A program made the position numbers and the translations under genes. A stretch of 64,000 nucleotides of DNA from contig NZ_JALXBK010000107.1 in assembly GCF_026991475.1 (NCBI RefSeq), positions 1 to 64,000 of the forward strand, read 5' to 3'. Source of the DNA: Sulfurimonas sp. (GTDB taxonomy: Bacteria; Campylobacterota; Campylobacteria; Campylobacterales; Sulfurimonadaceae). Position 1 is the stretch's first letter. Each line of letters opens with the position of its first letter. This document shows, one piece after another, positions 49,352 through 57,880 of this stretch. The notes under the pieces were generated by a model. It made no database searches. It had not been told where the DNA came from and saw only the letters and a program-made list of their open reading frames with translations.

Positions 49352-50128
49352 ATGGCAACTATAATTACAGGCGACTCAATCGAAAAACACAATGTTGATA
49401 AGTATAATTTTAAGGTAATTGCACTCGGTGCAAATGATGAGGCTGAGCAGAGTCCACAATATACTTCAGAGAATCATCCAAAAGCAAGAGTGACAGATGT
49501 AGATTCTAGTGCACTTTCACAAAGTTCTAAAGATTCTCTTATTGAGTCATTAATGCAAAAGACTGATGATATGTCATCAAATTTTATTAAACTGCAAATG
49601 AAGCTTGAAGCAAAAGAAGAAGAGCATGTAAATGAGCTAAAAAAAGCAAAAGAAGAGGCCTTTGCTGAAGGTATGAAAGCTGGAGAAGCAAAGGCGATGG
49701 AAGATATTGATAAAAATCTCAATGTTAAATTGACTCTTTTAGAAGATTCCATTAAAAAATTAGATACAAGTGCCCAAGAGTTTGCGAGTGCCTTAGAGGG
49801 AATTAAAAATGAGTTGGTAGTTGCAGCACTTGATATTTCTAAAGAGGTTCTCAAGGTAGAATTGAGTGAAAATTCTGCAGAGGTGGCAAAGGTTCTCTCT
49901 GATGAACTTATTAAAGAACTGCAGTCAGCTTCAAAAATAGAATTAAAAATAAATCCAAAAGATTATGCATCAGTGTCAGAACATTTAGGATCACTACAAA
50001 ATGTAAAAGTTCTCTCAGATAGTGCAGTAAGTGAGGGTGGTGTTATTGTGATGAGTGATGCTGGAAATATAGATGCACAAATATCAAAACGATTCCAAAG
50101 AGTAAAAAAGGCAGCTTTAGGTGAGTAA
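49352..50128 (+). CDS. fliH: Flagellar assembly protein FliH
   Basis: FliH binds the FliI ATPase and tunes flagellar export. The 258-residue protein has a disordered acidic N-terminus, a long helix with repeats of Glu and Ala (KEEAFAEGMKAGEAKAMEDI, GxxxG-like) at about 85-125, and the C-terminal domain KLTLLEDSIKKLDTSAQEFA with LVVAALDISKEVLKVEL. It overlaps dxs by 8 bases. fliI is not here. Confidence 0.92.
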   Translation: MATIITGDSIEKHNVDKYNFKVIALGANDEAEQSPQYTSENHPKARVTDVDSSALSQSSKDSLIESLMQKTDDMSSNFIKLQMKLEAKEEEHVNELKKAKEEAFAEGMKAGEAKAMEDIDKNLNVKLTLLEDSIKKLDTSAQEFASALEGIKNELVVAALDISKEVLKVELSENSAEVAKVLSDELIKELQSASKIELKINPKDYASVSEHLGSLQNVKVLSDSAVSEGGVIVMSDAGNIDAQISKRFQRVKKAALGE

Positions 50129-51956
50129 AAGAGTTGATGTAAAAACAAAATCACCAGCAGAGTTAGAAGAACTTTGTAGTGATATAAGAGATAAAATTTT
50201 AAAAGTTGTAAGTAAAAATGGTGGGCATTTAAGTTCTACTTTGGGCGCAACTGAGATAATAGTTGCCATGCACAAAGTTTTTGATTCCCAAAAAGATCCC
50301 TTTATCTTTGATGTTTCTCATCAGTCTTATGCGCATAAATTGCTTACAGGCAGATGGGATGAGTTTGAAACTCTTCGTCAATTTAATGGAATATGCGGCT
50401 ACACAAAGCCAAGTGAAAGTAGTGATGATTATTTTGTAGCAGGGCATAGTTCTACTTCTATCTCTTTAGGTGTTGGTGCAGCAAAGGCGATAGCACTAAA
50501 AGGAGAAGAAGATTCTAGGATTCCTGTAGTACTTATTGGTGATGGTTCTATGACTGCGGGGATGGTTTATGAAGCTTTAAATGAGCTAGGTGATAGAAAA
50601 TACCCTATGATTATCATTTTGAATGATAATGAGATGAGTATATCAAAACCAATAGGTGCTATGAGTAGAATCTTAAGTTCAGCAATGGCTTCGCCACTTT
50701 ACCAGCGTTTTAAGAAAAATACTGAAAGTTTTGTAGATAATTTTGGTGAGAGTGCGCGTTATTTGGCAAAGCGTATGGAAGAGTCATTTAAGCTGATTAC
50801 TCCTGGTGTCCTCTTTGAAGAGATGGGAATTGATTATATTGGTCCTGTGGATGGGCATAACCTTACACAACTGATTGATATTATGCAGACGGCAAAGAGC
50901 TTGAAAAAACCTGTACTCATTCATGCGCAAACACTCAAAGGTAAAGGTTATGAAATAGCAGAGGGACACGAAGAGAAGTGGCATGGTGTTGGTCCTTTTG
51001 ATATAAAAGATGGACACTCTCTTAAAAAAGCTTCTCTCAAAAGTGCGACACAAATATATACAGAGTCTCTTTTGCATTTGTGTGAGCATAATGATAAAAT
51101 CGTAGGTGTAACAGCGGCAATGCCAAGTGGTACAGGGCTTTCTCCTCTTATGGAAAAATATCCTAATAGATTTTGGGATGTAGCAATTGCAGAACAACAT
51201 GCGGTAACATCTATGTCAGCATTAGCAAAAGAGGGATTTAAACCATTTTGTACGATTTACTCTACATTTTTACAGCGTGCTTATGATCAGGTTATTCATG
51301 ATGCTTGTATAATGGATCTGCCAATTGTTTTTGCACTTGATCGTGCTGGAATTGTTGGAGAAGATGGTGAAACACATCAGGGTGTTTTTGATGTTAGTTT
51401 TTTACGAGCTATTCCAAATATGACACTCTTTGCTCCACGCGATGAAAAAAGTTTTCATCAGGCAATGGCGTTTGCTGCGACGTACGAGCATCCTTGTTCT
51501 TTGCGTTATCCAAGAGGTTCTTTTATAGAGAGTGTTTTGCCAGAATCTGCTGCGTTTGAGCTTGCAAAAGCACAACTGCTTGTAGAAAATGATAGCAATA
51601 TTCTCTTTATAGGATATGGCAATGGAGTAGGGCGTGCATATGAAACTGCTAAAGAGTTGGATGAAAAAGTTGCTCTACTTGATTTACGTTTTGTAAAACC
51701 ACTTGATGAGCAGATGCTGAAAACTCTTGCACAAAAACAGAAAAAATGGTTTGTTTTTAGTGACACGGCAAAAAGTGGCGGTGTTGGTTCTGCTATTTTA
51801 GAGTTCTTAGCAAAAGAGAAAATAATGGATGTTTCTGTGGAGAGTTTTGAGTATGATGATGCGTTTATTACGCATGGAAATACAAAAGTGATTGAAGAGT
51901 CTCTTGCTTTGCTCCCTATACAACTTGCACAGCGAGTAAAAGCTTCAATCCTTTAG
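50121..51956 (+). CDS. dxs: 1-deoxy-D-xylulose-5-phosphate synthase
   Basis: Dxs condenses pyruvate and glyceraldehyde-3-phosphate to start the MEP isoprenoid pathway. The 611-residue TPP enzyme starts at GTG (50121), has VSHQSYAHKLLTGR, GDGSMTAGMVYEALN (TPP), EEKWHGVGPFD, the transketolase part VAIAEQHAVTSMSALAKEGF, and DRAGIVGEDGETHQGVFD. The start overlaps fliH by 8 bases and its end overlaps the convergent pgeF by 12 bases. I recall the fliH-dxs link in C. jejuni too. Confidence 0.97.
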   Translation: MSKRVDVKTKSPAELEELCSDIRDKILKVVSKNGGHLSSTLGATEIIVAMHKVFDSQKDPFIFDVSHQSYAHKLLTGRWDEFETLRQFNGICGYTKPSESSDDYFVAGHSSTSISLGVGAAKAIALKGEEDSRIPVVLIGDGSMTAGMVYEALNELGDRKYPMIIILNDNEMSISKPIGAMSRILSSAMASPLYQRFKKNTESFVDNFGESARYLAKRMEESFKLITPGVLFEEMGIDYIGPVDGHNLTQLIDIMQTAKSLKKPVLIHAQTLKGKGYEIAEGHEEKWHGVGPFDIKDGHSLKKASLKSATQIYTESLLHLCEHNDKIVGVTAAMPSGTGLSPLMEKYPNRFWDVAIAEQHAVTSMSALAKEGFKPFCTIYSTFLQRAYDQVIHDACIMDLPIVFALDRAGIVGEDGETHQGVFDVSFLRAIPNMTLFAPRDEKSFHQAMAFAATYEHPCSLRYPRGSFIESVLPESAAFELAKAQLLVENDSNILFIGYGNGVGRAYETAKELDEKVALLDLRFVKPLDEQMLKTLAQKQKKWFVFSDTAKSGGVGSAILEFLAKEKIMDVSVESFEYDDAFITHGNTKVIEESLALLPIQLAQRVKASIL

Positions 51957-52673
51957 AAAAATAATACCGCTAAACCTACCTGTCTCTTTTTCTGCTCGGT
52001 AGGAGTAGAAGTTTGTGGTGTTACAGGCAGTGCAAAGTGGTGCTGTTTCTATATTTTCTTTTTGTATGCCTGCGTTTAAAAGTTGCGTTTGGAGTATTTT
52101 TTGAATATTTAAAAAGTAGCTATTATCTCTTTTTTGGATGGCATATTCAAGATCTAATTTTTTTGTTTCATCAAATATCTCTTCTCCTACTTCATAACAA
52201 CATTGATGAATATTTGGACCGATACTTACATAGATGTTTTCAGGTTTTGCGTGAAAATTATTTACAAATACATCTACAACATTTTGACTTATATTAGAAA
52301 ATGCACCTGCACGACCTGCGTGGGCTACTCCAATAGTTTTTTTCTCTTTATCATAAAAAAGCAGGGGTGCGCAGTCTGCTACCATAACCATTAAAGGTAT
52401 GTTCTTTTTATTTGTGACAAGGGCATCACAAGTAGGAGGCGTTTCAAAGCTGTCATTTTCATCGATGATTTTGACTGCGTTTGAGTGAATTTGCTTCATA
52501 TGAACGACTGTTTTACAGTCATATTTTAGCTCTTGTGCTAAGTGTTGATGATTGGCAATGACTTCTTCTATTTTATCATTAACATGAAAGGCAAGGTTTT
52601 TACTATGCTTTGTTGTGTAACAGTGTCTGATGTCAGAGAATGCATTTAATAATTTACTTTGATAAAATTTCAT
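51945..52673 (-). CDS. pgeF: Purine nucleoside phosphorylase/laccase-domain protein (YfiH/PgeF)
   Basis: This family, once called polyphenol oxidase, acts on purine nucleosides and polices peptidoglycan precursors. I start it at 52673 (242 residues, MKFYQSKLLN); the ORF-track extension of 41 residues runs over the promoter and into ovoA. Motifs: VHMKQIHSNAVKI, VADCAPLLFYD, GVAHAGRAGAFSNI and GPNIHQCCYEV give the metal-binding His and Cys. A minus-strand TATAAT ends 6 bases before the ATG and no ribosome site is present, so the mRNA looks leaderless. Confidence 0.87.
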   Translation of the reverse strand: MKFYQSKLLNAFSDIRHCYTTKHSKNLAFHVNDKIEEVIANHQHLAQELKYDCKTVVHMKQIHSNAVKIIDENDSFETPPTCDALVTNKKNIPLMVMVADCAPLLFYDKEKKTIGVAHAGRAGAFSNISQNVVDVFVNNFHAKPENIYVSIGPNIHQCCYEVGEEIFDETKKLDLEYAIQKRDNSYFLNIQKILQTQLLNAGIQKENIETAPLCTACNTTNFYSYRAEKETGRFSGIIFLKD

Positions 52674-52707: not shown

Positions 52708-54804
52708 GTGAGCAGATTAAGTATGTATCCAATAACCTTGGATGGTGAGAGTGTAGAGAACAAAAGAGTAGAGATAAAAGAGTACTTTAATAACACTTTT
52801 GATTTGTTTGAAAAGGTTTTTGAACTCCTAAAAGATGAGAGCGTCTTTTATAAAAAGAGTGAACCATCGCGTCATCCTATGATATTTTATTTTGGACATA
52901 CTGCGACTTTTTTTATAAATAAACTCATCAATATGAAGATAATTGAGAAGCGTATAAACCCCTCTTTTGAGTCAATATTTGCTGTTGGTGTTGATGAAAT
53001 GAGCTGGGATGATTTGAATGAGACACATTATGAGTGGCCAAAAGTTTCAGAAGTTCGAGAGTATAGAAATAGCGTACGAACTCTTGTAAATGAGTTAATT
53101 ATGAGACTCGATTTTACTCTGCCCATAGATGATAGTTCTGCGATGTGGATAATACTGATGAGTATAGAACATGAGCGAATACATATTGAAACATCTCTGG
53201 TTCTGCACCGTCAAATGCCTATAGAATTTGTAAAAGAGGTCGCTGCGTTTAACCTCTGTACTCACTCGGCAAGAAGTCCTAAAAATGAGATGATAGCCAT
53301 TGCGGGTGAAGATGTGATACTTGGAAAAAAGAGATTGCACCACCTTTATGGTTGGGATAACGAATATGGTCGCCAAGAAGAGAATGTTCAAGAGTTTAAA
53401 GTCTCAAAATACCTTGTCAGTAATGGTGAATTTATGGAATTTGTTAAAGATGAAGGGTATGAAAAGCTTGAGTACTGGGATGAAGAAGGAGAGGAGTTCC
53501 TTAAACGCAGCGGTGCAAAATATCCTCATTTTTGGGTGAAAGAGGGCAATAAATTTCTCTACAGAGCACTAAGTAATGTTATTGAGATGCCTGAAGATTG
53601 GCCAGTAGATGTGAATGCACTTGAGGCAGAAGCTTTTTGTAGATATAAGAGTCAAAAAGAGGGCTTAGAGTATAGATTGCCGAGTGAGGGAGAGTATGGA
53701 GTAATTTATAATTATTCAAATATTAAAGATGTGCCTCAGTTGCATGAGAGTCGGGCAAATCTTAATTTTTATCATTATGCGTCATCTTGTCCTGTTAATG
53801 AGTTTAGTTTTAATGGCATATATGATGTTATCGGTAATGTTTGGCAGTGGAGTCGCACACCGATAAGAGGCTTTAAAGGCTTTGAAGTTCATGAGGCTTA
53901 TGATGATTTTTCAACTCCTACTTTTGATGATAAACACTCCTTGATTTTGGGTTCTTCGTGGGCTAGTAGTGGAAATTTAATTATGAAACATTCTCGCTAT
54001 GCTTTTCGTAAACACTTTTTTCAAAATGCAGGCTTTCGTTATGTAATTTCTGCAAATGAGAGTAAGAGTGAAGATATTTATGAGAGTGATGCACTTATAT
54101 CGCAGTATTGTGAATTTCAGTATGGAGATACACATTTTGGTGTGAAAAACTTTTCCCTCTCTTGTGCTGAACTTGCTGCTCGTTATGCAATCAACACAAA
54201 AAAAGCACTAGATTTAGGCTGTGCAACGGGTAGGGCTACTTATGAACTTGCAAAAACTTTTGACATGGTGGAGGGAGTAGATTTTTCTGTGCGTTTTGTT
54301 CAGGTCGGCTCAAAACTTAAAGATGAAGGATATGTAGCCTTTGTTGATAGAGTTGAGGGTGACATTACACAAAATAAAAAGATAAGCATAAAAGAACTTG
54401 GTTATGAAAATTTGCGCAAGAGAGTCTCTTTTTGGCAAGGAGATGCTTGTAATCTCAAGGCAAATTTTAATTCGTATGATTTAATAATGGCGACAAATCT
54501 TATTGACAGGCTTTATAATCCTAAATTCTTTTTAGAGAGTGTAGTTGAAAGGCTTAATAAAGATGGGATTTTGATACTGACATCCCCATATACTTGGCAG
54601 GAGAGTTCTACGAAAAAAGAGTTCTGGCTTGGTGGATATAAGGATGAACATGGTAATGAAGTGCGAACACTTGATACTCTAAAAGGAATTTTAGAGAATA
54701 ACTTTGAACTCCTTGGCGTAGAAGATCTGGAGTTTGTCATTAAAGAGACAGCACGAAAATACCAGCATACTATTTCACAAGTTACTATTTGGAAAAAGCG
54801 ATGA
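52708..54804 (+). CDS. ovoA: Ovothiol synthase OvoA (5-histidylcysteine sulfoxide synthase and methyltransferase)
   Basis: OvoA joins Cys and His to 5-histidylcysteine sulfoxide with an iron centre and O2; its C-terminal domain later methylates 5-thiohistidine to ovothiol A. The 698-residue protein has a DinB-like domain with the iron-binding HERIHIE (HxxxHxE, H155 and H159, E161) and upstream FGHTATFF, a formylglycine-type fold (about 190-450, with EYRLPSEGEYG and IGNVWQWSRTP) and a SAM methyltransferase at about 490-695 (ALDLGCATGRATYELA). The GTG at 52708 has GGAG ahead. Its stop overlaps ovoB as ATGA. The oxygen-dependent reaction suggests exposure to oxygen. Confidence 0.93.
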   Translation: MSRLSMYPITLDGESVENKRVEIKEYFNNTFDLFEKVFELLKDESVFYKKSEPSRHPMIFYFGHTATFFINKLINMKIIEKRINPSFESIFAVGVDEMSWDDLNETHYEWPKVSEVREYRNSVRTLVNELIMRLDFTLPIDDSSAMWIILMSIEHERIHIETSLVLHRQMPIEFVKEVAAFNLCTHSARSPKNEMIAIAGEDVILGKKRLHHLYGWDNEYGRQEENVQEFKVSKYLVSNGEFMEFVKDEGYEKLEYWDEEGEEFLKRSGAKYPHFWVKEGNKFLYRALSNVIEMPEDWPVDVNALEAEAFCRYKSQKEGLEYRLPSEGEYGVIYNYSNIKDVPQLHESRANLNFYHYASSCPVNEFSFNGIYDVIGNVWQWSRTPIRGFKGFEVHEAYDDFSTPTFDDKHSLILGSSWASSGNLIMKHSRYAFRKHFFQNAGFRYVISANESKSEDIYESDALISQYCEFQYGDTHFGVKNFSLSCAELAARYAINTKKALDLGCATGRATYELAKTFDMVEGVDFSVRFVQVGSKLKDEGYVAFVDRVEGDITQNKKISIKELGYENLRKRVSFWQGDACNLKANFNSYDLIMATNLIDRLYNPKFFLESVVERLNKDGILILTSPYTWQESSTKKEFWLGGYKDEHGNEVRTLDTLKGILENNFELLGVEDLEFVIKETARKYQHTISQVTIWKKR

Positions 54805-55985
54805 AGTATGACTTTATCACAGCTGCCAATCGTGAAGATACAAATGCTGAAAAGTATACCCTAAGAGAGGAGCTTTTTGGTACACAAGATGTGCTTCCTG
54901 CATGGGTTGCAGATATGGATATAAACACACCAGATTTTGTACTAAACGCAGTTAAAAAGCGCTTAGATCATCCCATTGTCGGCTATGAAGAGATGCCCGA
55001 TTCTGCTTTTGATGCACAGATAAAATGGATGCAACAAGAGCACGGCACTGCGTTTAAGAGAGAAGATATGTTCTATTCTCACTCTGTTGTTGCCTCCATG
55101 GGGAGTGCTATTGCTGCGTTTACAGATGAGGGTGACGGTGTAATAGTGCAAACTCCTGTCTATCCACCTTTTTTTCATAGTGTAACGCAGTTAAATCGAA
55201 AAGTAGTCAAAAATCCTTTGCGTCGATGTGAAGATGGCAGCTACACTTTTGATATAGAAGATTTACGAGCAAAAATTAATAAAAGGACAAAATTACTGCT
55301 GTTATGTTCACCGCATAATCCCGTAGGAAGAGTTTGGAAAAGGGAAGAACTTGAAGCAATTTTAGCGCTCTGCTTGGAGCATAAGATTGTTGTCTTTTCT
55401 GATGAAATACACTCTGATTTAGTCTATTTACCAAACAAACATATCTCTTTTTCTACGCTAAACGCAGCGGCTAAAACACTCACACTTACTGCCATAGGTG
55501 TTGGAAAAACATTTAATATGGCAGGCTTTGCTATCAGTAGTGTAGCTATAGAAGATGAAAACTTGCGAAAACGCTTTAAAAAAGCTTATGAAAGTGTGCA
55601 TTATGCACAAGGAAGTGTACTTTCTCATGTTGCGTTTGAAGCGGCTTATACAGAAGGTAAGGAGTGGTTGAGTGAGTTGAAAATTCATCTCTACAATAAC
55701 TATATGCTTTTAAAAAATTTGAGTGATAAATATGCTACATTTATTAAAATAACACCTATTGAAGCGACCTATTTGGCATGGATAGATTGTCGAGGGATGG
55801 GAATGCGTGACAAAGAGCTTCGAGAGTTTTTTATAAAAGATGCAAAACTAGGGCTCAATGCTGGGCTTGCTTTTGGTAGAGAGGGAAGTGCTTATATGCG
55901 TTTGAATTTTGCAGTAAGCTCTACTACAATGCTGCAAATCATAAATAGATTGGAAACTTCATTATTAAGGCTTAGTAATGGGTAA
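54801..55985 (+). CDS. ovoB: PLP-dependent C-S lyase, probable OvoB
   Basis: OvoB splits the sulfoxide made by OvoA to release 5-thiohistidine. This 394-residue fold-type I enzyme (ATG at 54801, overlapping the ovoA stop) is of the MalY/PatB cystathionine beta-lyase-like type: LPAWVADMDINTP, GYEEMP, CSPHNPVGRVWKREEL, FSDEIHSDLVY and TAIGVGKTFNMAGF with the PLP Lys at 236. Family membership alone would give a C-S beta-lyase; the operon position gives the ovothiol role (inference). A plain cystathionine beta-lyase remains possible. Four AAACGCAG motif copies lie in this gene. Confidence 0.78.
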   Translation: MKYDFITAANREDTNAEKYTLREELFGTQDVLPAWVADMDINTPDFVLNAVKKRLDHPIVGYEEMPDSAFDAQIKWMQQEHGTAFKREDMFYSHSVVASMGSAIAAFTDEGDGVIVQTPVYPPFFHSVTQLNRKVVKNPLRRCEDGSYTFDIEDLRAKINKRTKLLLLCSPHNPVGRVWKREELEAILALCLEHKIVVFSDEIHSDLVYLPNKHISFSTLNAAAKTLTLTAIGVGKTFNMAGFAISSVAIEDENLRKRFKKAYESVHYAQGSVLSHVAFEAAYTEGKEWLSELKIHLYNNYMLLKNLSDKYATFIKITPIEATYLAWIDCRGMGMRDKELREFFIKDAKLGLNAGLAFGREGSAYMRLNFAVSSTTMLQIINRLETSLLRLSNG

Positions 55986-56403
55986 TGATTTAGAAAAAAT
56001 CACTGCGTTTATAGAACAGCATCATGTTTTAAGTTTAGCAACATCACTCGATAATTTGCCGAGTGTCTGTTCTGCTTTTTATATTTATGATGCTCAAAGT
56101 CACTCGTTTGTTATTGCTAGTAGTGAAGAGACTTTACATATAAAACAGGTAAAGGTAAATAAAAATGTAGCAGGAAATATTTTACTTGAGACCAAAGAGA
56201 TTGGGAAAATTCAAGGTTTACAGTTTTTTGCTAAGATGCAAGCTTTAGAAGATGAAAGGCTGAAAAAATCTTACTTTAAAAGATTTCCTTATGCTTTAGC
56301 ACTTCTTCCAAAATTATGGCAAATAGAGGTAAGCCGATTTAAATTGACAGATAACAGACTTGGATTTGGCAAAAAGATTATTTATGAGTACACCTCTCTT
56401 TAA
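55978..56403 (+). CDS. YhbP-family (UPF0306) flavin-binding-like protein, third gene of the ovothiol operon
   Basis: The 141-residue protein matches E. coli YhbP along its length: FIEQHHVLSLATS, AFYIYDAQSHSFVIASSEETLH, ILLETKEIGKIQGLQFFAKM and the end DNRLGFGKKIIYE. Such proteins have a split-barrel flavin fold like pyridoxamine phosphate oxidases, and their biochemical role is unknown. AAGG precedes the ATG and the gene overlaps ovoB by 8 bases, so it belongs to the operon. A role in ovothiol redox cycling or recycling is possible, but equally it may serve PLP supply. The 3' end overlaps the small Cys protein on the other strand. Confidence 0.75.
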   Translation: MGNDLEKITAFIEQHHVLSLATSLDNLPSVCSAFYIYDAQSHSFVIASSEETLHIKQVKVNKNVAGNILLETKEIGKIQGLQFFAKMQALEDERLKKSYFKRFPYALALLPKLWQIEVSRFKLTDNRLGFGKKIIYEYTSL

Positions 56404-56551
56404 ATAGTGAGCATTCACTCCCACTACTTCTCAATACAACCATAGATGGAATTTGTGCTGATTTAAAGCCATAGGCCCTGCATCCATGAGGCTGTTTCGG
56501 CTCCCAAGTGACAAAATAGTATTCACATTTTCTACAATTAATTCTTTTCAT
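56378..56551 (-). CDS. Small conserved-looking cysteine protein
   Basis: A 57-codon ORF too short for the track reads MKRINCRKCEYYFVTWEPKQ, then PHGCRAYGFKSAQIPSMVVL and RSSGSECSLFKERC. The spacing of five Cys (CRKC, GC, EC, RC) suggests a bound metal. I recall similar short proteins in Campylobacterota and Deltaproteobacteria, sometimes wrongly annotated as uracil-DNA glycosylase. A -10-like TGTTAAAAT ends 5 bases before the ATG and no ribosome site is present, so it may be leaderless. It overlaps the YhbP-like gene end by 26 bases. Confidence 0.6.
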   Translation of the reverse strand: MKRINCRKCEYYFVTWEPKQPHGCRAYGFKSAQIPSMVVLRSSGSECSLFKERCTHK

Positions 56552-56611: not shown

Positions 56612-57301
56612 ATGAATAATAAAATATTAATGATGATTGAGCTACAAAATGGACTCAATGATGCGACAAATGGTAAAGAGTGGACAAAAGGTATAACAAA
56701 AAATGGCAAGAAAATTGATTGGCGTCGTTGTATTTATATGGAGTGTGCAGAGATGGTAGACAGCTTTCCTTGGAAGCACTGGAAGGCAATTACGGCAGAG
56801 CCAGATTGGGAAAATCATCAAATAGAAGTTGTTGATGTTTGGCACTTTATTATTAGTTTGGCGATTGAAGAGTATACACAAAATAATAGAGGTTCACTAG
56901 AAGATATTGCCGTGCAAATCTCTAACTCTAATACTCTTAATAAAATTGAAACTACAGAAGAGTCATTTGCTCCAATTGATGCTGTTTTAGAAAAGGTAGA
57001 GAATCTCATACGCGTAGCTATTTCTAAAGAAGCTGTTGATTTAGATACTCTTTTTGGTGAATTTTTTGATTTAGTGGCTATGAGTGGATTAAATCTTGAT
57101 TCACTCTATAGACTCTATGTAGGAAAAAATATTTTAAACCAATTCCGTCAGGATAATGGCTATAAAGAGGGAACATATATTAAAGTATGGAATGACAAAG
57201 AGGATAATGTTGTAATGAAATCAATTTGGGAAACAAATAGTGATGTTACTCCTGAGTTTTTATATGAAGAATTATCGAAAGTTTATGTAACTCTTGTTTA
57301 G
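56612..57301 (+). CDS. dut: Dimeric dUTP diphosphatase
   Basis: This enzyme hydrolyses dUTP to dUMP, keeping uracil out of DNA and feeding thymidylate synthesis. The 229-residue protein is the all-alpha, dimeric type known from C. jejuni and phages, not the trimeric beta type. Metal-binding motifs are ECAEMVDSFPWKHWK (ExxE-type) and IEVVDVWHFIISL. An AGGATAAAAATAG leader precedes the ATG. It is followed 9 bases later by an ABC ATPase gene of unrelated kind. Confidence 0.93.
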   Translation: MNNKILMMIELQNGLNDATNGKEWTKGITKNGKKIDWRRCIYMECAEMVDSFPWKHWKAITAEPDWENHQIEVVDVWHFIISLAIEEYTQNNRGSLEDIAVQISNSNTLNKIETTEESFAPIDAVLEKVENLIRVAISKEAVDLDTLFGEFFDLVAMSGLNLDSLYRLYVGKNILNQFRQDNGYKEGTYIKVWNDKEDNVVMKSIWETNSDVTPEFLYEELSKVYVTLV

Positions 57302-57310
57302 AGATTTGAT

Positions 57311-57880
57311 TTGCAAGATACTTTAAAAATAGAGAATCTCTCTTTTGGTTACTCAAAAGAGAAGTTACTTTTTGAAAATTTTTCTCTGCGTTTAAAAAAA
57401 GGAGAGCTAAAAGCAATAGTAGGGGAGAGTGGTGCTGGTAAAAGTACCCTCTTTGAAGTGATTTTAGGAAACTTAAAACCATTTAGTGGCACTGTTAGCT
57501 GTAGTTCTATTTCTCAAATTTTTCAAGACCCATACAGCTCTTTTCATCCCAGCTATACACTTTTAAATCAAATATCTGATGTAGCATCATTAGATAGGCT
57601 TGATGTCTGTCTAAAAGAGATTAAGTTAGAAAAAGAACTTTTACATAAACTTCCTCATGAACTTTCAGGAGGGCAACTCCAGCGTGCTTCCATTTTACGA
57701 GCAATGCTGATGGAGAGTGAACTTCTACTGCTTGATGAACCAACATCAGCACTTGACAATGTTATTCAACTAGAGGTAATGCAGATGTTGATAAAGAGAC
57801 TTGACTCCACGGCAATGTTACTTATAACACATGATATGGAGTTAGCCTCTTGGTGTGCAGATGAGGTTATAACGATTTAA
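57311..57880 (+). CDS. Orphan ABC transporter ATPase subunit
   Basis: The 189-residue protein starts at TTG (57311) and is a complete but short ABC ATPase: Walker A GESGAGKS, Q loop SQIFQDPYSSFHP, signature LSGGQLQRA, Walker B LLLLDEPTSA and H loop LLITHD. The QDPYSSFHP Q-loop is typical of oligopeptide and nickel (Dpp/Opp/Nik) ATPases. Such ATPases usually exceed 250 residues and come with permeases, but none is adjacent. It may serve a remote transporter or be a non-transport ATPase. It meets crcB convergently with a 4-base overlap. Confidence 0.8.
   Translation: MQDTLKIENLSFGYSKEKLLFENFSLRLKKGELKAIVGESGAGKSTLFEVILGNLKPFSGTVSCSSISQIFQDPYSSFHPSYTLLNQISDVASLDRLDVCLKEIKLEKELLHKLPHELSGGQLQRASILRAMLMESELLLLDEPTSALDNVIQLEVMQMLIKRLDSTAMLLITHDMELASWCADEVITI

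Follow-up and report, generated by a model that had tools for sequence, protein, structure and literature searches.

Bacterial ovoA-ovoB pairs, those of vent bacteria included, are covered in a review that cites a Sulfurimonas species (PMC9103826), and ovothiol production in Sulfurimonas is already implied by the published ovoA surveys reviewed there. Here we analysed a 64,000-nucleotide stretch of the genome of a sulfur-oxidising bacterium, Sulfurimonas sp. (assembly GCF_026991475.1, contig NZ_JALXBK010000107.1, positions 1 to 64,000 of the forward strand; hereafter the window), in which ovoA is followed by a gene for a pyridoxal 5'-phosphate (PLP)-dependent C-S lyase and by yhbP, a gene for a small split-barrel protein. 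Our comparison indicates that the locus very probably holds an ordinary gene pair for the antioxidant ovothiol A, beside which YhbP is a split-barrel neighbour with a function of its own that does not depend on ovothiol. The three genes lie as follows (aa, amino acids):

52708..54804, + strand: ovoA, 698 aa, GTG start (TIGR04344, TIGR04345, PDB 8khq)
54801..55985, + strand: ovoB candidate, PLP-dependent C-S lyase of the PatB/MalY type, 394 aa, ATG start at 54801 (TIGR04350, PDB 6qp3)
55978..56403, + strand: yhbP-like gene for a split-barrel protein, 141 aa, very probably a positional neighbour (NF002900 below cut-off, AlphaFold, Foldseek)

The source genome (2.07-Mb, completeness 99.96%) has Sulfurimonas as its close relatives, and both ovoA and yhbP are single-copy in it. 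Comparisons were made with a genus sample of 135 genomes, 79 of which were of high quality (completeness ≥90% and contamination ≤5%), and with an order sample of 159 Campylobacterales genomes, each with completeness ≥90%. G and L numbers label the compared genomes and loci, G000 being the window genome.

The ovoA-ovoB pair

The OvoA of the window scored 641 bits against the sulfoxide synthase model TIGR04344 (cut-off 400) and 311 bits against TIGR04345 (cut-off 170), which covers the C-terminal mercaptohistidine N-methyltransferase domain. Its HxxxHxE motif reads HERIHIE at residues 155-161, and His64 is the third conserved histidine. By homology, the product would be a 5-histidylcysteine sulfoxide synthase fused to a 5-thiohistidine N-methyltransferase. 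In the proposed pathway, OvoA would use iron and O2 to join cysteine and histidine as a sulfoxide, OvoB would cleave its C-S bond to give 5-thiohistidine, and the C-terminal domain of OvoA would methylate this product to ovothiol A.

The lyase belongs to the PatB family, with 525 bits against TIGR04350 (cut-off 340), a subfamily-level PatB model whose cut-off is not specific to OvoB, and it keeps the PLP-lysine motif GKTFN. A profile of this breadth, and PatB and cystalysin enzymes as the best-matching solved relatives, would also suit a PatB/MalY enzyme of general function, a cysteine desulfhydrase or cystathionine beta-lyase, whose gene is a mere neighbour of ovoA. We consider this very improbable, given that the lyase gene lies directly 3' of ovoA, mostly overlapping it, in Campylobacterota, Geomonas, Nitrosospira, Nitrosomonas and other loci, and that no second close copy of the lyase was found in the window genome. 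The two genes adjoin in the window, as they do in most of the closer loci compared, a pairing that spans several phyla. The lyase is thus a sound OvoB candidate, its substrate being assigned by homology and context.

The initial annotation is borne out on these points. Its coordinates, the ATGA overlap of ovoA and the lyase gene at 54801-54804 and the 8-bp overlap of the lyase gene and yhbP were all exact to the base; the iron site and the methyltransferase domain that it had read in OvoA are both present; and its view of ovoA-ovoB as an ovothiol operon in which the lyase fits OvoB is well supported. Chance accounts for none of these features.

A different OvoA architecture was seen in one genus of Sulfurimonadaceae, represented by G255 (L205) and G280 (L213, L175), where the protein is a sulfoxide-synthase core of 470-490 aa that lacks the methyltransferase domain. 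In G280 this domain is located elsewhere and shares a 613-aa protein with an ADP-ribosylglycohydrolase domain; in the remaining family genomes that were searched, the ADP-ribosylglycohydrolase frame is just about 350-390 aa. In G255, no match to the methyltransferase passed the cut-off.

Linkage and separation of yhbP and ovoAB

Of the 135 Sulfurimonas genomes, 116 were found to have yhbP and 118 to have ovoA; among the 79 high-quality ones the number is 76 for each gene. Of the 106 Sulfurimonas genomes that have both genes, 96 (~90%) have them on the same strand of one contig, and the gap between them is 1.18-1.53 kb in 80 of these 96, which corresponds to the lyase gene with or without one small gene. 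In the genus the genes follow the full order dxs, pgeF (divergent), ovoA, ovoB, a small open reading frame (ORF), yhbP, the dUTPase gene (dut) and a gene for an ATP-binding cassette (ABC) ATPase. In Sulfurimonadaceae the ovoA-ovoB pair appears to sit inside an older order, dxs-(pgeF)-[ovoA-ovoB]-(small ORF)-yhbP-dUTPase-ABC ATPase, and yhbP would be linked to ovoAB in the genus because it belongs to this older, stable block, that is, by position.

We found that yhbP and ovoAB come apart in both directions. Without any ovoA in the genome, dxs-yhbP-dut is in place in G061 (99% complete), dxs-yhbP in G035 (92% complete), yhbP-dut in G063 (99% complete) and small ORF-yhbP-dut in G165, a 100% complete genome of a sister genus. 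Where ovoAB is absent, dxs lies directly before yhbP or before small ORF-yhbP. Placing the rows whose locus lacks ovoA on the yhbP tree takes seven changes, at least five of which are forced by well-supported branches, and the nearest relatives of G061 and G063 (G084 and S. indica NW8N, respectively) both have ovoA. Of the seven tree genomes whose locus lacks ovoA, some are incomplete and may have it elsewhere, and the firm ovoA-less cases are therefore G061, G063 and G035. The locus has also been broken up in other ways: ovoAB lies on another contig in G060, which keeps small ORF-yhbP-dut together, and in G032 the locus is split, with ovoA beside dxs and ovoB beside yhbP. Conversely, ovoA-ovoB-small ORF-dut is contiguous in G049 (98% complete), and yhbP is nowhere in that genome. 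yhbP was likewise not found in the high-quality genomes G087 and G112, where a contig end breaks the locus and its absence is hence no proof of loss. Gain and loss of yhbP and of ovoAB are thus independent.

The same separation holds across the order. Among the 159 Campylobacterales genomes, 23 carry both ovoA and yhbP, 35 only yhbP, 41 only ovoA and 60 neither, which gives an odds ratio of 0.96 (Fisher p = 1); outside Sulfurimonadaceae the odds ratio is 0.61 (p = 0.26). There, yhbP adjoins luxS, DUF1294 and, in some genomes, a dUTPase gene, and ovoA and yhbP are linked in none of the 13 double carriers, in which they lie on separate contigs or >140 kb apart. Among the ovoA neighbours of other bacteria, no YhbP-like gene was found beyond Sulfurimonadaceae and near relatives; the YhbP profile gave no score to any other small ovoA neighbour in the distant loci that were examined, and when 66 ovoA neighbours of other bacteria were scanned with Pfam, the 25 commonest families included no PNPOx family.

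These results bear on the proposal, made in the initial annotation, of a third gene dedicated to ovothiol, whose product would reduce ovothiol disulfide (for example as a flavin- or heme-dependent enzyme), scavenge sulfenic by-products of the lyase or supply PLP. The tight linkage on one contig and strand in Sulfurimonas, the redox-type split barrel and the probable co-transcription (below) are what such a gene would lead one to expect. However, yhbP persists in ovoA-less genomes, is missing from 41 of the 64 ovoA carriers in the order sample, is never linked to ovoA outside Sulfurimonadaceae and was lost from G049, which kept ovoAB. Co-occurrence, linkage, gene loss and the yhbP tree all led us to reject a role as pathway enzyme, and a dedicated ovothiol gene of any of these kinds is highly improbable; the linkage reflects synteny. 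The expectation that yhbP would follow ovoA-ovoB in other genomes holds for nearly all Sulfurimonas, where the rare linkage once set against the proposal was not observed, and does not extend beyond the family.

The remaining members of the block in the window, together with a convergent ORF behind yhbP, are:

50121..51956, + strand: dxs, upstream anchor of the block (PF13292, 1.7e-101)
51945..52673, - strand: Cu-oxidase_4 gene (YfiH/PgeF-type, pgeF), divergent from ovoA and a member of the conserved block (PF02578, 6.8e-68; synteny)
56378..56551, - strand: 57-aa Cys-rich ORF, convergent with yhbP, preceding dut (phmmer)
56612..57301, + strand: dUTPase gene (dUTPase_2, dut), stable 3' neighbour of yhbP in Sulfurimonadaceae (PF08761, 8.5e-36; synteny)
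57311..57880, + strand: ABC transporter ATPase gene, next in the conserved block (PF00005, 7.9e-26)

The 57-aa ORF (MKRINCRKCEYYFVTW...PHGC...) is genus-wide and strongly conserved (phmmer E ≤ 1e-5 in 92 loci), and it had no Pfam match. Because it runs convergently between yhbP and dut, the transcript is suggested to end after yhbP, and with the unit closed there, co-transcription of yhbP with ovoB is likely wherever ovoB lies upstream. In an ordinary ovothiol pair next to an independent yhbP, such co-transcription with ovoAB may come about merely through position.

A small ORF and recurrent defence-gene insertions within the operon

In relatives of the window genome, a conserved small ORF of 73-80 aa lies between ovoB and yhbP (e.g. 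L087:1294-1512, L165:1907-2143); it is missing in the window. It is present in 67 of the 79 high-quality Sulfurimonas genomes and also in G165 and G154, both without ovoA. Its product is predicted as a five-helix fold (predicted local distance difference test, pLDDT, 85), for which no Pfam match was found and a fold search of the PDB returned nothing better than E 4.7. The sister genome G076 has the small ORF and a 210-bp gap between ovoB and yhbP. The ORF is missing from the window genome and from G086, a pair that the yhbP tree places as a supported clade within the G076 lineage. The 8-bp overlap of ovoB and yhbP in the window lineage is a product of the loss of the small ORF and is specific to that lineage.

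We also asked about the small ORF and ovoA status. Among the high-quality genus genomes it occurs in none of the 3 that lack ovoA versus 67 of the 76 that have it (Fisher p = 0.003). It was nevertheless rejected as a dedicated ovothiol gene: besides the 100% complete, ovoA-less G165, it is carried by G154, which has neither ovoA nor yhbP, and G095 shows dxs-small ORF-yhbP with ovoAB not at the locus. Its association with ovoA looks like a co-deletion of neighbours.

The ovoA-ovoB junction, normally the ATGA overlap, is a recurrent site for the insertion of restriction-modification and defence genes, occupied in 15 of the 96 same-contig Sulfurimonas genomes (L157, L158, L160, L161, L193-L203). 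The cargo varies, and ovoA and ovoB stay in place. Largely of the restriction-modification or phage-defence kind, the inserted genes encode MmeI-like and Eco57I-like type IIG enzymes, C5 methylases and an NgoPII nuclease on the restriction-modification side, and otherwise a YhcG nuclease (PDC-S02), a TIR-like protein (PDC-S35), RhuM/ORF6N and ApeA-like proteins. G046 has an insertion of another kind (L159:3151-7874), in which four genes of no clear family (616, 278, 277 and 407 aa) lie between ovoB and yhbP; the 407-aa gene has a weak match to 3'-phosphoadenosine 5'-phosphosulfate (PAPS) reductase, and the small ORF is missing at this site.

Two observations weigh against a purely positional place for yhbP. 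First, inserts between ovoA and yhbP occur in 16 genomes, at ovoA/ovoB in 15 and at ovoB/yhbP in G046 alone, and the better-kept ovoB-yhbP junction could reflect selection for co-expression of ovoB and yhbP. Second, ovoB and yhbP abut without the small ORF in G255 and G280, which belong to a deeper genus of Sulfurimonadaceae, and direct adjacency has therefore arisen or persisted more than once. A defence-gene hotspot at ovoA/ovoB accounts for the asymmetry between the junctions equally well, without calling for an ovothiol role for YhbP.

YhbP might have a general redox or cofactor function, stand outside the pathway and gain from co-expression with ovoAB in Sulfurimonas, for example in a shared response to oxygen or peroxide. 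The ovoB-small ORF-yhbP order outlasts the insertions that 15 genomes have between ovoA and ovoB, and the fold neighbours of YhbP include stress proteins and heme-utilisation proteins, both of which would fit such a role. G165 and G095, however, keep small ORF-yhbP without ovoAB, so that ovoAB is not needed to explain the order, and we regard a benefit from co-expression as possible but unlikely. A further proposal is that ovoB-small ORF-yhbP was recruited in Sulfurimonadaceae for ovothiol maintenance, with YhbP as its reductase or peroxidase partner, which would use ovothiol where this is present and another thiol where ovoAB is absent. If true, this would explain both the survival of yhbP after the loss of ovoA and the best-kept junction with ovoB, but we give it very little credence.

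Taken together, these comparisons illustrate that a gene does not become a pathway member by overlapping a biosynthetic operon in a single genome, nor by adjoining it in ~90% of the genomes of a genus. The data suggest that YhbP is not worth chasing as an ovothiol enzyme. The analysis points to the unexplained small protein and to the defence-gene hotspot inside the operon, and ovothiol production stays the testable point.

Comparison with described proteins

The YhbP of the window is of the same size as the E. coli-type YhbP (UPF0306) and matches the equivalog model NF002900 over nearly its full length (profile positions 5-142 of 150), but it differs in its score of 106 bits, under the curated cut-off of 176, which makes it a homologue and not a certified equivalog. 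Against PF01243 it reached 21 bits, under the gathering score of 28. AlphaFold confidently models it as a split barrel that has a helix at its N terminus (mean pLDDT 92.3), and a Foldseek search of the PDB returned 180 matches at E ≤ 0.001, the top ones being split-barrel proteins and the best 6vna (Pden_1323; E 2.9e-8). The description as a YhbP-type split-barrel protein thus stands as to fold and homology, and falls short at the NF002900 cut-off. By sequence, the single protein as query found no solved relatives at E ≤ 1, and a profile search gave weak, partly spurious matches only. The literature searched contained no paper naming YhbP or UPF0306.

Within the PNPOx-like/HugZ-HutZ superfamily, Pden_1323, MSMEG_6519, HugZ/ChuZ, HutZ and GSP26-type proteins all matched the model with probability 1.0, although identity to the best matches is 13-20%. 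Split-barrel neighbours of this kind bind flavin mononucleotide (FMN), flavin adenine dinucleotide (FAD), coenzyme F420 or heme; HugZ, HutZ and MSMEG_6519 form a heme-binding group, and the GSP26-type members are flavin proteins. YhbP is a split-barrel protein that probably binds flavin or heme, and its sequence does not choose among these cofactors.

The lyase resembles the OvoB/PatB-family C-S lyases in its PatB score above cut-off, its PLP-lysine motif and the ATGA overlap of its gene with ovoA, and it matches the solved PatB 6qp3 with E 1.9e-82. OvoA aligns over residues 3-697 to the solved OvoA 8khq (E 2.6e-243), H155, H159 and H64 falling on the same residues, and its methyltransferase domain scored 289 bits against the solved OvoM 9bxl (phmmer). 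The window protein and 8khq have both domains, the HxxxHxE motif and the N-terminal histidine in common, and the sole difference between them is ordinary sequence divergence. The locus is a further instance of the known ovoA-ovoB kind.

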